Shown here: positions 522 to 40,583 of the stretch, in pieces
Layout: the number at the start of each line of letters is the position of its first letter
Numbering within the stretch: the stretch's first letter is position 1
Assembly: GCA_947588755.1 (NCBI GenBank)
Contig: CANPZB010000012.1
Location: 1 to 43,844, forward strand
Length of the DNA: 43,844 bases
DNA from: Candidatus Gastranaerophilales bacterium
GTDB lineage: Bacteria > Cyanobacteriota > Vampirovibrionia > Gastranaerophilales > Gastranaerophilaceae
Direction: 5' to 3'
Notes under the pieces: model-generated
What the model was told of the DNA's origin: nothing
The model's input: the letters and a program-made list of their open reading frames with translations, nothing else
Databases searched by the model: none
Program-made: the position numbers and the translations under genes

Positions 522-582
522 TTTTAAGTCCTTTCTTTTTTTATTAATTACTATTTATTGAAAACTATAACTATACATGTCA

Positions 583-601
583 CCCTGAACTAGTTTCAGG
601 G
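583..601. repeat. Palindromic repeat copy
   Basis: CCCTGAACTAGTTTCAGGG, with the same flanks as the copy at 439-457 (ATGTCA before, TCTTA after). It is intergenic, upstream of the pseudopilin start. Confidence 0.8.
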
Positions 602-741
602 TCTTATTTATTCGGTATTGGTACATAATCCTGAAACGTCTTGGATTTGCTCCAATGCGTGCAGGAGTTTGTTATTCACCATAGTTGTGGACATTGACTT
701 TGGTTTAGTATCTTTTCTATTTAAAGACTTTATAAGGCTCA

Positions 742-770
742 GATGCTGAAACAAGTTCAGCATGACATGG
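742..770. repeat. Palindromic repeat copy (TGCTGAA stem variant)
   Basis: The arms TGCTGAA and TTCAGCA surround a short ACAAG loop, followed by TGACATGG. The stem has TGC/GCA where other copies have CCC/GGG, a compensated change. Confidence 0.75.
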
Positions 771-837
771 GGAGAGTTATGCATAACAGGACAGTGTGCT
801 GACATGACAGAACTAAGGTTCAGAGTCATGATACAAA

Positions 838-864
838 GATCCTGAAACAAGTTCAGCATGACAG
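838..864. repeat. Palindromic repeat copy, mixed stem
   Basis: GATCCTGAAACAAGTTCAGC followed by ATGACAG. The left arm is of the CCTGAA type and the right arm of the TTCAGCA type, so the outermost pair is mismatched. It may be a hybrid or decayed copy. Confidence 0.7.
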
Positions 865-2579: not shown

Positions 2580-3542
2580 ATGCAAATAAACAAAAACGAA
2601 AAAAAATCCATACGTTCTGCATTCGGCAATGCATTAGTTGAATTGGGAAAAGAAAATAAAAATATTGTGGTAATGGATGCCGATTTGGCATGTTCAACAC
2701 AAACCGCAATGTTTGGCAAAAATTTTCCGGAACGTTTTTTTGATTGCGGAATAGCAGAGCAGGACATGATTGCTTCCGCCGCAGGACTTGCTTCTGTCGG
2801 GAAAATACCTTTTGTCGCAAGTTTTGCTATGTTTGCAACGGGCAGAACTTATGACCAAATCCGTAATTCCGTATGTTATCCGGAGTTTAACGTAAAAATA
2901 ATCGGCACTCATGGCGGTGTTACGGTCGGTGAGGACGGTGCAAGTCATCAGGCTTTGGAAGATATTTCATTGATGCGTGGTATTCCAAATATGTCCGTAA
3001 TTGTTCCGGCTGACTGCAGAGAATGCGAACAAGTCATTAAGTTTGCGGCAGAAAATTACGGTCCTATGTATATAAGAATTGCGAGAACCAATGTTTGTGA
3101 TATTTTTGATGAGAATTACGAATTTGATTTTTGCAAAGCGTATGTTATTCGGGAAGGCAGTGATGTTACGGTTATAACTAACGGCGAAACTCTTGCCGAA
3201 GTTATTTTGGCTGCTCAAATCCTTGAAAAAGAAGGCTATTCCGCACAAATAATACATGTTCCCGTCGTTAAACCTCTGGACGGTGCAACTATTATTGAAT
3301 ATGCCAAGAAAACAAAATTTGTGATTACCGTAGAAAACCATTCTATTATCGGTGGTTTGGGCAGTGCCGTTTGTGAACTTCTCGCAGAATATTATCCCAT
3401 GCCCGTTCACAGGCTGGGAGTTAATGATACATTCGGGCAAAGCGGGAAATGGGACTTTTTACTTGATTATTACGGGCTGAGTGCCGAAAAACTTGCCGTA
3501 AGCATTAAAAAGTATGTGGATAAATATCGTCTGGTAAAATAA
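2580..3542 (+). CDS. Transketolase, C-terminal subunit (split type)
   Basis: This is a 320-residue protein from ATG 2580; an in-frame ATG at 2532 sits at the predicted transcription start and is less likely. It matches the C-terminal half of split transketolases: a pyrimidine-binding domain (IRSAFGNALVELGKENKNIVV, then DCGIAEQDMIASAAGLASVG with the catalytic Glu of GIAEQ) followed by the transketolase C-terminal domain (VITVENHSIIGGLGSAV). Such subunits pair with an N-terminal TPP-binding half to transfer two-carbon units in the pentose phosphate pathway. No N-terminal partner lies next to it. DXP synthase shares this fold, but the length and sequence fit a split transketolase better. It heads an operon with ftsE. 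Confidence 0.85.
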   Translation: MQINKNEKKSIRSAFGNALVELGKENKNIVVMDADLACSTQTAMFGKNFPERFFDCGIAEQDMIASAAGLASVGKIPFVASFAMFATGRTYDQIRNSVCYPEFNVKIIGTHGGVTVGEDGASHQALEDISLMRGIPNMSVIVPADCRECEQVIKFAAENYGPMYIRIARTNVCDIFDENYEFDFCKAYVIREGSDVTVITNGETLAEVILAAQILEKEGYSAQIIHVPVVKPLDGATIIEYAKKTKFVITVENHSIIGGLGSAVCELLAEYYPMPVHRLGVNDTFGQSGKWDFLLDYYGLSAEKLAVSIKKYVDKYRLVK

Positions 3543-35124: not shown

Positions 35125-35345
35125 ATGGCAGATACAGAGATTAAAAACGGACAAGTGGGGGGGGGGTAAACCGCTCATACCAAAGGTTTTGGCGATTTTT
35201 TAATTTTTTATTAAGCCCCGAAAGATTGGATTCTCGTTCTGTCATCCTGAAAAACCATGTCATCCTGAACCATGATGTCATGCTGAACTCGTTTCAGCAT
35301 CTTATTTCGTGGCATTGGTTCAGTATTTTATATATAAGACCCTGA
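35125..35345 (+). other. Poly-G-interrupted small reading frame (probably switched OFF)
   Basis: ATG 35125, with AAGAGG upstream, opens MADTEIKNGQV, which runs into a G10 tract (35157-35166) and hits TAA immediately after it. One extra G would open a 73-codon frame continuing VNRSYQRFWRFFNFLLSPER and ending at TGA 35343-35345, its last part encoded by palindromic repeats. The peptide after the tract resembles the one after the G10 tract at 947. This fits slipped-strand phase variation of a small protein, here in the OFF register, or a decayed gene. Confidence 0.5.
35241..35304. repeat. Palindromic repeat cluster (one full, two partial copies)
   Basis: Two half copies reading GTCATCCTGAA (35241 and 35259) precede a full copy, TGCTGAACTCGTTTCAGCA flanked by GTCA and TCTTA (35277-35304). 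Tandem partial copies suggest growth by slippage or repeated insertion. Confidence 0.7.
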
Positions 35346-35366
35346 AACTAGTTCAGGGTGACATGG
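35338..35366. repeat. Palindromic repeat copy
   Basis: CCCTGAAACTAGTTCAGGG followed by TGACATGG, in inverted orientation to the copy at 583. A half copy (AGCATGACATG) follows at about 35376. Confidence 0.8.
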
Positions 35367-35451
35367 TGGTGTTTAGCATGACATGAAGGTATTTGAATGA
35401 CAAATAAAAAAGTAACAAACAGTAATAAATAAAAAAAGAAAGGAACAAAAA

Positions 35452-36159
35452 ATGAAAGAAGAAATTAAAAACTTGAAGATTTTGGAAAAGTTGGTAAGAC
35501 CTGAAAAAGCTAAGATGCTGAACCAAGTTCAGCATGACAAATCAGCCTTTACTCTCGCTGAGGTGTTAATAACCCTTGGGATAATCGGCGTTGTAGCGGC
35601 AATGACTATTCCGTCGCTTGTTCAGCATTATAAAAAACAGGTTGTAGAAACTAAATTACAGAAAGTATATTCTGTTATGAATCAGGCGATTGCTCAATCA
35701 GAACTTGTAAATGGTGAAAAAGAAACTTGGCAGGGCGGATTAACACCAATGGAATTTTACGAACAATATTACAAGGGTTTTGTAAAAGTAGCAAAAGTTG
35801 AGCAAGTTGGTTCAGATGCATTAATGTATTTTGCAGACGGCAGTTTGCTAAGAATATCAACTAACGGTCGTGATTACGTGTTTTATATAAACAGTAAAAG
35901 TTTCATAGGTGATAAAACTACGGACAATAATAATAAGTCAATGGGTCGTGACGTGTTTTCATTCAGATTTGCACCGTACTATAATGAACCTAATAACAAA
36001 ATTTTTGAACCCGATAAAATAAATTGGGACGGAACAGAATCGGATTTATTTAATAATAGTAGTTACGGGTGTGCAAATAGTAAGAGCAAACATTATTGTA
36101 CAGCTATCATTCAGCTTAACGGGTGGAAGATACCTGATGATTACCCGATAAAGTTTTGA
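35452..36159 (+). CDS. Pseudopilin-like secreted protein
   Basis: This 235-residue protein has the prepilin helix AFTLAEVLITLGIIGVVAAM (F33 predicted as first mature residue) after a 32-residue leader. The leader MKEEIKNLKILEKLVRPEKA matches the start of the leader at 1-521, and both carry a palindromic repeat at residues 21-29 (here KMLNQVQHD). The upstream DNA (AAAGAAAGGAAC before the ATG) is also alike. The mature part has three Cys (in SSYGCANSKSKHYCT) and the DGSLLRIS strand common in these pseudopilins. The last codons lie in the first unit of a 62-bp tandem repeat. Role unknown. Confidence 0.83.
   Translation: MKEEIKNLKILEKLVRPEKAKMLNQVQHDKSAFTLAEVLITLGIIGVVAAMTIPSLVQHYKKQVVETKLQKVYSVMNQAIAQSELVNGEKETWQGGLTPMEFYEQYYKGFVKVAKVEQVGSDALMYFADGSLLRISTNGRDYVFYINSKSFIGDKTTDNNNKSMGRDVFSFRFAPYYNEPNNKIFEPDKINWDGTESDLFNNSSYGCANSKSKHYCTAIIQLNGWKIPDDYPIKF
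35513..35540. repeat. Palindromic repeat copy inside pseudopilin leader
   Basis: The arms TGCTGAA and TTCAGCA around CCAAG, followed by TGACAA, lie in frame at leader residues 21-29. Compared with the copy at 439-457, the outer stem pairs differ but still pair. Confidence 0.8.
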
Positions 36160-36341
36160 CAAAAATCTGCAAAGAGGAAAACGGGCTTTGCCCGCCTGAT
36201 GATTACCCGATAAAGTTTTGACAAAAATCTGCAAAGAGGAAAACGGGCTTTGCCCGCCTGATGATTACCCGATAAAGTTCTGACAAAAATCTGCAGAGAG
36301 GGAAACGGGCTATGCCCGTTTGACGATTATTCGATAAAGTT
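36133..36341. repeat. 62-bp tandem repeat, three units plus a partial fourth
   Basis: Units begin at 36133, 36195, 36257 and 36319 with an exact 62-bp period. Each carries DNA for the pilin C-terminus (GATGATTACCCGATAAAG), a GAGGAAAA stretch and a small hairpin with arms CGGGC and GCCCG around TTT. Unit 1 spans the end and stop of the pseudopilin. The third and fourth units are diverged. The period is not a multiple of three, so only unit 1 is translated in frame. Confidence 0.9.
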
Positions 36342-36348
36342 TAAACGA

Positions 36349-38338: not shown

Positions 38339-38881
38339 ATGACAACGGTAGAACCAATCAGAGAATTATCGGATATCAGGAAAATAGAAAGATATCTGGC
38401 AGAAAAAAATCCGAGAGATTTACTATTATTTACTGTCGGAACAAATTGCGGATTAAGGATTTCAGACATAGTTGCGTTAAATATAGGTGATGTTAAAAAT
38501 AAAACGCATATACAAATTAATGAAAAGAAAACGGGTAAATTTAAGAAATTCCCTATAAATGCAAAATTAAAGCCTATGTTTGAAGATTTTATTCAAGGAA
38601 AACATGCCGAAAATGCTTTATTTGAATCAAAAAATCATAATCGGCTTGACAGATTTACCGCATACAGAATAATAAAAACAGCTTGTAAAAGTGTTGGTTT
38701 GGAAGAACGAGTTGGTACACATACTATGAGAAAAACTTTCGGATATCATCATTATAAGAAATATAAAGATGTGGCAATGTTACAGAAGATATTTAATCAC
38801 TCAAATCCGGAAATCACTTTAAGGTATATAGGAATTGAGCAAGACCAAATAGACGAAAGTTATTCAAATTTTATATTATAA
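38339..38881 (+). CDS. Short tyrosine recombinase (FimB/XerC-like DNA invertase candidate)
   Basis: This 180-residue protein consists of the catalytic domain only, like FimB/FimE. The full catalytic set is present: Arg40 (GLRISDI), Lys63 or Lys64 (NEKKTGK), His128 and Arg131 (THTMRKTFGY), His154 (FNHSNPE) and Tyr163 (LRYIGI). It should cut and rejoin DNA at short inverted or direct sites through a 3'-phosphotyrosine. GAAAGAGG precedes the ATG. It ends 19 bp before the left arm of a 23-bp inverted repeat, which is probably its target. No phage or transposon genes surround it, favouring a dedicated switch over an integrase. Confidence 0.9.
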   Translation: MTTVEPIRELSDIRKIERYLAEKNPRDLLLFTVGTNCGLRISDIVALNIGDVKNKTHIQINEKKTGKFKKFPINAKLKPMFEDFIQGKHAENALFESKNHNRLDRFTAYRIIKTACKSVGLEERVGTHTMRKTFGYHHYKKYKDVAMLQKIFNHSNPEITLRYIGIEQDQIDESYSNFIL

Positions 38882-38933
38882 AACAAGTTACGAGAATATC
38901 ACATTTTATTGTTTTTGTGGTATGAGTCGGGAA

Positions 38934-38970
38934 ATAGGGCTATATATTAATTACATCCATATAGCCCTAT
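38934..38970. repeat. 12-bp perfect inverted repeat within the invertible segment
   Basis: ATAGGGCTATAT (38934-38945) and ATATAGCCCTAT (38959-38970) with a 13-bp loop. It could be a bidirectional terminator preventing read-through from the recombinase gene in either orientation, or an accessory protein site. It lacks a T-run. Confidence 0.7.
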
Positions 38971-39088
38971 GAAAAAAATAAATAACGTAACATTTTTTAA
39001 CAAAAGGATAAAGCTTTTTATTATTTTTGTTATTATAGTCTTGGTGGTTTTGAATATTGAATACCACAAAAACAATAAAATGTTATGA
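38969..39088 (+). CDS. Possible 39-residue single-pass membrane peptide
   Basis: The frame starts at ATG 38969 and reads a Lys/Asn-rich head, a hydrophobic helix (LFIIFVIIVLVVL) and a short polar tail whose last codons lie in the right inverted repeat. No ribosome site is visible, the start overlaps a hairpin, and inversion of the segment would separate it from its stop. It may be fortuitous. Confidence 0.25.
   Translation: MKKINNVTFFNKRIKLFIIFVIIVLVVLNIEYHKNNKML
38997..39024 (+). promoter_or_regulatory. Promoter-like sequence inside the invertible segment
   Basis: TTAACA (38997-39002), a 16-bp spacer and TATTAT (39019-39024), each one mismatch from consensus. It points toward the asparagine-synthase-like gene in the orientation seen here. 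On the opposite strand a perfect TATAAT (complement of 39034-39039 region) has only a weak -35 partner. Confidence 0.5.
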
Positions 39089-39103
39089 AGAAGGGAATAT
39101 TTT

Positions 39104-40165
39104 ATGATAGATAAGAATTATTGCATGAGCCATTATTTGGCTTTCAGGTTTATTAAAGATGAGAATGTTAACTTCTTTGACGGTTTAACTCATAGTGTTT
39201 TCAAACCCAAAAGCGAAAAAGATATTGAGTTTGTATACACTATTGATGATATGGACAAAGTCATAAGAGAAAAAATAAATGATTTTTATATACCGAATAA
39301 AACTGCAATATTATTATCAGGCGGAATTGATAGTGCTGTTCTGGCAAGTTATTTGCCTGAAGGTACTAAAGCATATACATTTAAATGTATTGCCGAGGGT
39401 GCAATTGACGAGACCCAAAGAGCAAAAAAATATTGCGAGAAATACGGACTTAACCATGAAATAATTGAAATGTACTGGTCTGATTTTGAAGAATTGACTC
39501 CCGAAATATTGAAACATGACGGCGTACCTTTTCATTCTATTGAAGTTCAATTGCTGAAAGCCGCAAGACATGCCAAATCTCAAGGGATTGAAAGATTAAT
39601 CATAGGGGAAAGTGCTGATTTGATTTTCGGCGGTATGGATAAATTAATTTCAAAAAATTGGGATTTCAATGAATTTAAAGAAAGATATAATTTTGTTAAT
39701 CCGCAAAAAGTTCTCAAAAATCCGGTGAGTGTTGATGATGTTTATGAAAAATACAGACTTGAAAATAATAAAATTGACTTTTTAAAATTTCTCGATGAAG
39801 TATTTTCCATTGAATCATCAACATCATATATGCACGCATTTGAAATTGCGGGAATTGAATATTTAGATCCTTATTCATATATGAGAATGGGAGAAAAACT
39901 AGACTTAAACAGAGTAAGAAACGGTGAACCCAAATATATGGTTAGAGAATTATTCAGAAAATGTTATCCTGATTTTGAAATTCCTGATAAAATCCCTATG
40001 CCAAGAGCAACGGATGCTTGGCTGGATGACTATCGGGGGGGGGGGCACAGCAGCTTGGTTTTTACCGAAAATTTCACTCAAAATATGTCCGGCGACCAAA
40101 AATGGCTTTGCTGGTGTCTTGAAAAGTTTTTAGAATTGTATGATAAAGGGGTAGAAAATGTCTAA
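39104..40165 (+). CDS. Asparagine-synthase-like ATP-pyrophosphatase with in-frame G11 tract
   Basis: This 353-residue protein has the PP-loop SGGIDS (72-77) of the asparagine synthase C-terminal domain, which adenylates a carboxylate before amide transfer. It lacks the N-terminal glutaminase domain, so ammonia would come from a partner. The C-terminal MSGDQKWLCWCLEKFL fits the family. Codons 311-314 are read from eleven G (40035-40045). Losing one G would stop translation at 40133 and gaining one at 40122, either way replacing the last 40 residues. The gene lies 20 bp after an inverted repeat and overlaps the next gene by 8 bp. It is probably a surface-glycan or lipid-head modification enzyme; the substrate is unknown. 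Confidence 0.8.
   Translation: MIDKNYCMSHYLAFRFIKDENVNFFDGLTHSVFKPKSEKDIEFVYTIDDMDKVIREKINDFYIPNKTAILLSGGIDSAVLASYLPEGTKAYTFKCIAEGAIDETQRAKKYCEKYGLNHEIIEMYWSDFEELTPEILKHDGVPFHSIEVQLLKAARHAKSQGIERLIIGESADLIFGGMDKLISKNWDFNEFKERYNFVNPQKVLKNPVSVDDVYEKYRLENNKIDFLKFLDEVFSIESSTSYMHAFEIAGIEYLDPYSYMRMGEKLDLNRVRNGEPKYMVRELFRKCYPDFEIPDKIPMPRATDAWLDDYRGGGHSSLVFTENFTQNMSGDQKWLCWCLEKFLELYDKGVENV
40035..40045 (+). repeat. G11 homopolymer tract in coding sequence
   Basis: Eleven G in a row within an AT-rich gene, in the register that keeps the frame open. One of three G tracts of ten or more in the window (also 947-956 and 35157-35166). Confidence 0.95.
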
Positions 40166-40583
40166 AATGATTGTAGGGTATACGGCGGGTGTTTATGATT
40201 TATTTCATATCGGTCATTTGAATTTATTAAAAAATGCAAAAGGTTTATGTGACAAATTAATCGTTGGTGTAACGGTTGATGAACTTGTGCAGTATAAAAA
40301 TAAACATGCTGTAATCCCGTTTGAAGAACGAATTGAAATTGTGAGAAATATAAAATATGTTGATGCTGCAATTCCTCAGGAAGAAATAGACAAATTTAAA
40401 ATGTGGGAAAAATTGCATTTTGATGTCCTTTTTGTTGGAGATGACTGGTTTAATTCGCCAAGCTGGAAAGAAATGGAAGGAAAATTTTCCGAAGTCGGTG
40501 TACGTGTAATTTATTTCCCATATACAAAAGGTACAAGTTCAACTTTGATAAATAAAACTTTACGTCAACTCAGAGCAAATTAG
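40158..40583 (+). CDS. TagD-like cytidylyltransferase
   Basis: This 141-residue nucleotidyltransferase has GVYDLFHIGHLNLL with the HxGH motif, GDDWFNSPSWKE, and the ending YTKGTSSTLINKTL, equivalent to the RTEGxSST motif. These match glycerol-3-phosphate cytidylyltransferases (TagD) and related CTP:phosphoalcohol enzymes, which make CDP-activated precursors for teichoic acids or capsules. The start may be 40158 or the ATG at 40167. It overlaps the asparagine-synthase-like gene by 8 bp, so both would be switched together. Confidence 0.88.
   Translation: MSKMIVGYTAGVYDLFHIGHLNLLKNAKGLCDKLIVGVTVDELVQYKNKHAVIPFEERIEIVRNIKYVDAAIPQEEIDKFKMWEKLHFDVLFVGDDWFNSPSWKEMEGKFSEVGVRVIYFPYTKGTSSTLINKTLRQLRAN

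Follow-up and report, generated by a model that had tools for sequence, protein, structure and literature searches.

A probable promoter inverton beside a phage-type mini-integrase in a genome of the Gastranaerophilales

A short segment of DNA in a genome of Candidatus Gastranaerophilales bacterium is very likely a phase-variation switch, that is, a promoter inverton flipped by its own recombinase; the flipping and the resulting change of expression in a clonal population are inferred. Gastranaerophilales are non-photosynthetic Cyanobacteria of animal guts and are largely uncultured. The switch lies on a stretch of 43,844 nucleotides (contig CANPZB010000012.1), referred to here as the window, in a genome of 1.83 Mb across 89 contigs. 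A 189-bp segment with inverted arms lies 16 bp downstream of a tyrosine recombinase gene, and after it come a gene of the Asn-synthase superfamily and an overlapping cytidylyltransferase-like gene (Table 1). The flanks carry housekeeping genes, those for ATP synthase beta/epsilon on one side and MnmG on the other, and there are no phage genes directly beside the locus. Invertible promoters are well known. However, their occurrence in this lineage appears to be undescribed in the open-licence literature, where our search found no report of phase variation by inversion in Gastranaerophilales/Melainabacteria; subscription papers were outside that search.

Table 1. Features of the putative switch and its neighbours, in window coordinates.
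Feature	Position	Strand	Evidence or remark
Tyrosine recombinase of 180 aa, catalytic domain only; predicted invertase	38339..38881	+	Pfam, catalytic hexad, AF2 model, fold match
Left recombination site / inverted arm ATCACATTTTATTGTTTTTGTGGTAT	38898..38923	+	
Invertible segment, 189 bp	38898..39086	.	96% identical copy at G000:C24:26009-26194, in opposite orientation relative to its own gene
Stable hairpin in segment, 12-13 bp stem	38934..38970	.	-15.5 / -16.9 kcal/mol, z -4.1 / -3.5
Extended -10 promoter motif TTTTTGTTATTAT, -10 TATTAT at 39031-39036	39024..39036	+	Family-wide motif; faces gene
Right recombination site / inverted arm	39061..39086	-	
Ribosome-binding-site-like GAAGAAGGGA	39087..39096	+	Sequence; outside invertible segment
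Asn-synthase-superfamily gene, 353 aa, putative switched gene	39104..40165	+	Pfam PF00733, 2e-17
In-frame run of 11 G in the putative switched gene	40035..40045	+	Candidate slippage-based second switch
Glycerol-3-phosphate-cytidylyltransferase-like gene	40158..40583	+	Overlaps Asn-synthase-like gene

The recombinase, the arms and the genes behind them

The initial annotation had described a 180-residue tyrosine recombinase with all catalytic residues, and this held. The protein matches Phage_integrase (PF00589, E 5.7e-25) in Pfam, its catalytic hexad (R40, K64, H128, R131, H154 and Y163) is complete and invariant across 27 relatives, and its AlphaFold2 model (pLDDT 92) folds onto XerA plus the catalytic domains of HP1 and lambda integrase. 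Both marks of the tyrosine recombinase superfamily, the catalytic R-K-H-R-H-Y set and the fold, are present. Membership of phrog_216, which we judged by a match across the whole protein, is also met, residues 1-178 aligning with positions 49-236 of the 301 in the profile (E 1e-59, 203 bits). This phage sequence family is the closest one, and so we call the protein a phage-type mini-integrase; the match assigns no function. Identity to prophage proteins is about 50%, and many of the relatives sit in prophage contigs. In a tree, the protein groups with the sampled Gastranaerophilales genome loci in a well-supported part (98/91), apart from most of the prophage relatives. It is not a FimB/FimE-type invertase by the NCBIfam cut-offs (32.1 bits against 221 for NF007370 and 44.8 against 222 for NF007371), and, being of the tyrosine type, it is not an Mpi-type serine invertase.

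The perfect 23-bp inverted arms of the initial annotation (38901-38923 and 39061-39083) were confirmed, as were their distances of 19 bp from the recombinase stop codon and 20 bp from the ATG at 39104. The arms extend to 26 nt, with 25 of 26 positions paired (96% complementary) and 137 nt between them, and they have the internal dyad structure that is usual for the core sites of tyrosine recombinases. A strict dyad pattern search misses these very sites because their half-sites are asymmetric. In the inverted-repeat test that we applied to the family, which has a threshold of 16 or more, the window pair would score 23, and no pair reached the threshold in 72 shuffled regions of the relatives or in 63 + 77 real control regions. 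The segment is thus bounded by inverted recombination sites beside a site-specific recombinase, as a promoter inverton should be.

The hairpin inside the segment has no T-tract, and a scan for intrinsic terminators was negative; it might act as an insulator, but its role is unknown. A small open reading frame at 38968-39088, which crosses the right arm and would encode a membrane-like peptide of 39-40 aa, was rejected as a gene, as it is frameshifted in the segment copy on contig C24.

The gene behind the segment does not pass as a true asparagine synthetase: it scores 43.6 bits with asn_synth_AEB (TIGR01536), for which the cut-off is 267.1, and no glutaminase domain was matched. It likely shares an operon with the cytidylyltransferase-like gene. 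Slippage at its run of G would shift the reading frame, and this could possibly be a second layer of switching; overlapping matches to G10 number 100 in the genome. Poly-G tracts of nine or more are in great excess despite the low GC (947-956 and 35157-35166 are other examples in the window). They are common in the family, rare in the order's other families and often at contig ends, and an assembly artefact is not excluded. Other repeats in the window include three 62-bp tandem units (36133-36342), the first of which overlaps the end of a gene for a pilin-like DUF6613 protein, and an intergenic palindromic repeat resembling CCTGAAACAAGTTCAGGATGACA, which has many copies (window 574-860 and 35236-35370; contig C48, L041, 12200-12616).

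Evidence for inversion and for a promoter

Both orientations exist, between paralogous loci of the window genome and between related genomes. The C24 copy of the segment precedes a paralogous Asn-synthase gene and is reversed with respect to it. Aligned as they are, the two loci share 206/314 identities, and after in silico inversion 262/287; on the gene side the flank agrees beyond the arms, and the segment that they enclose is reversed. The loci L080 and L081 of related genomes differ by a clean 189-bp inversion between the two sites (164/250 identities, rising to 225/230). Where their half-sites differ, the difference remains with the outer flank, which places the exchange in the central TTAGTA. 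A third pair, L049 and L130, shows the same kind of difference, at one of the two site pairs available there (324/454 identities before and 357/432 after in silico inversion). The search for the opposite orientation that the initial annotation had proposed therefore succeeded at the paralogous locus of the same genome and at two homologous switches in relatives. L049 against L074 was not counted; BLAST gives a reversed stretch, but there were no matching cores for an in silico inversion.

These are comparisons between loci and between species, mostly of metagenome assemblies. There are no reads that bear on flipping inside one strain, which is inferred, and the window locus is known from one genome of its genus. 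Orthologues of the Asn-synthase-like gene in nine relatives have no inverton upstream, and so the switching of this gene would be a local acquisition.

The promoter pair that had been proposed at 38997 and 39019 did not hold up. A sigma-70 scan gave 10 promoter-like sites in 1 kb, which is not above chance (6.8 +/- 2.9 in shuffles), and the promoter is better placed at 39024-39036. There the family-wide motif is found, and its consensus, TTTnTGnTAnnAT, has a full 9/9 match in 19 of 33 spacers, against 0.65 expected. That consensus was first drawn by eye from about seven of the tested spacers, and so its position is a more independent test than the number of matches: 17 of 20 instances, whichever way they face, start 30-50 nt before the next site, where 2.9 were expected and the maximum in 20,000 simulations was 10. 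Relative to the gene, the motif points away in 12 spacers and toward it in six, and upstream of ordinary genes it is mildly sense-biased (11 sense versus 4 antisense among 198). It faces the gene in the window and faces away at both switches on C24 and at the one on C48, and these would accordingly be predicted to be ON in the window and OFF elsewhere. An outward promoter is thus indicated by the sequence and position of the motif alone, without transcript data. The reading of the segment as an invertible promoter, also made initially, is supported by the opposite orientations and by this directional motif with its constant spacing to the sites.

We propose that the recombinase binds two inverted sites of about 22-26 bp and cuts and rejoins them in their central 6 bp or so, which would invert the 189-bp segment; both steps are inferred from homologues and have not been shown in the window strain. 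The segment would carry a single outward promoter. In the orientation shown, this promoter would fire through the right-hand site into the Asn-synthase-like/cytidylyltransferase operon (ON), and when flipped it would aim back at the recombinase and leave the operon silent (OFF). The same recombinase would probably also act in trans and flip two C24 segments that carry its sites without a recombinase of their own; one of these would drive the paralogous Asn-synthase gene and was caught in the OFF state. A surface glycan is the probable target of the switched genes, and the switch would therefore diversify the cell surfaces in one population.

Related switches in the genome and the family

Three recombinases of the mini-integrase type are present in the window genome, each with its own site sequence; the sites were located by pattern searches. 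Sites of the window type (two mismatches or fewer) are found by pattern search at the window locus, four times on C24 and once on C31, and nowhere else. The lone site-like match on C31 has no strong arm pair. No recombinase homologue was found on C24, and so its sites are probably served in trans; the single locus of the initial annotation is extended in this way to a distant contig. Beside a C24 switch, an open reading frame (L006, 11268-12452) appears by eye to be a fusion of a pilin-like N-terminus and a lipid-kinase-like C-terminus, possibly the result of recombination or misassembly.

The second site sequence has three copies, all on C48, and exopolysaccharide export and sugar-transferase genes are among the run of genes that follows them. 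These sites (L041, 9452-9480, 9612-9640 and 9754-9778) lie between the recombinase and that run, one opposed to two, and they might allow two inversions and one deletion. The third recombinase gene is itself enclosed by the third sequence, which has two copies on C1 (L042), perfect 26-bp inverted repeats at 2605-2630 and 3315-3340; a gene for a large protein lies downstream.

Recombinase homologues (E <= 1e-40) are present in 136 of 191 genomes of the family and in 34 of its 41 genera, with 1-10 in each genome. Enough sequence was available at 72 loci, and at 25 of these an arm pair scoring 16 or more lies within 560 bp 3' of the recombinase, as compared with 0/72 shuffled, 0/63 far and 0/77 upstream regions in the same test. 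The segments of the relatives differ in sequence and share the layout. Most of the genes behind the switches are surface glycan genes, including glycosyltransferases (GT1, GT2 and GT9), sugar nucleotidyltransferases, epimerases and a DegT aminotransferase; a subset are phage-type or other regulators, for example a phage-type HTH gene at L075. In three prophage relatives (L217, L219 and L220), an inverted arm pair precedes the recombinase, at -148 to -13, and it is conceivable that these phage genes switch themselves.

In the glycan operons of relatives, the first gene behind the inverton is often a dead recombinase paralogue (L049, L050, L073, L076, L084, L090, L091, L098 and L276-L292). H128 is lost in all 22 that are readable, H154, Y163 and R40 are lost in most, Y163 having become F in most, and yet the reading frame is still open. 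Twelve of the 22 lie directly behind an active recombinase; the window locus has no such paralogue. Presumably these proteins would be made mainly when the switch is ON and could bind the sites, a possibility that rests on inference without binding data. A bolder reading would join these observations into a family-wide network of surface phase variation, in which phage-derived mini-integrases with private sites flip the promoters of glycan operons, linked and unlinked, in addition to abundant poly-G tracts, and in which, in many members, the ON operon starts with a dead recombinase whose synthesis is confined to the ON state and which, by binding the sites, feeds back on the switch to bias or lock it. 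We offer this joint reading as speculation and lean slightly against it as a whole.

Alternative explanations and known systems

The alternative that survives best, although it is unlikely, is that the inversion is real and control is not by the promoter, for example if the hairpin blocks upstream read-through in one orientation. The hairpin is strong (-16.9 kcal/mol) and lies beside the left arm, and the OFF orientation would place it just before the gene. Against this, the spacing between the conserved motif and the site is fixed, and a terminator-like T-tract is missing. The two kinds of control are not mutually exclusive.

Two other explanations are very unlikely. The segment could be a MITE-like transposable element, with the 26-bp arms as terminal inverted repeats and the C24 copy as a second insertion, and one genome does have two near-identical copies with inverted ends. 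However, both copies are equally placed before paralogous genes, and their gene-side flanks agree beyond the arms although the segment itself is reversed, which insertion does not produce. The differing sequences and common layout of the relatives' segments and the dyads within the arms also speak against it. Alternatively, the locus could be the remnant of an integrative element, with the arms as att sites and the difference in orientation being ancient. The phage integrases among the recombinase's relatives, many of them in prophage contigs, and the switches of the same build before phage-type HTH genes, as at L075, would fit this. However, one would expect att sites to be directly repeated at the ends of a large element, and the window arms instead enclose a promoter in inverted orientation; housekeeping genes adjoin the locus, and recombinase homologues persist in most genera. 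That the arms act as a regulatory element which does not move (a hairpin, terminator or operator), with a recombinase nearby by coincidence, has the strong hairpin in its favour and is all but excluded, since the enrichment of arm pairs is confined to the stretch just 3' of these recombinases and homologous loci differ in orientation.

We return, then, to the promoter inverton. Its layout is of the fimS or Bacteroides type, as had been proposed initially, and the recombinase is neither FimB/E-like by the curated cut-offs nor of the serine type. As in the fimS/FimB-FimE system of E. coli, a tyrosine recombinase of catalytic-domain size adjoins a short invertible segment with a promoter, and a surface gene follows. 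Unlike that system, the window has arms of 26 bp, one active recombinase, which scores far below both invertase models, glycan genes instead of pili and further copies that are probably switched in trans. RecV of Clostridioides difficile is a single tyrosine recombinase that acts on several unlinked switches (PMC5903667), and the window recombinase probably resembles it in this; however, it adjoins one of its own switches and differs in phylum, sites and genes. Bacteroides have invertible capsule promoters served by the serine recombinase Mpi (PMC5903667, PMC11892184) and, similarly, several invertible promoters per genome before surface-polysaccharide operons. UpxY is commonly regulated there, whereas several Gastranaerophilales relatives have a catalytically dead recombinase as the first gene. 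RecV and Mpi had already established that one recombinase can serve several switches (PMC5903667). The phage mini-integrases of phrog_216 are the closest in sequence, but outside the Gastranaerophilales only one of 69 phage members has an arm pair just downstream in the same test.

Very little is known about how Gastranaerophilales meet host immunity and phages. With a common and recognizable switch, known sites and a promoter motif, the ON and OFF states of surface genes would become countable from existing gut metagenomes, and the dead recombinases in the switched operons raise a new and testable question, namely how such switches get biased.
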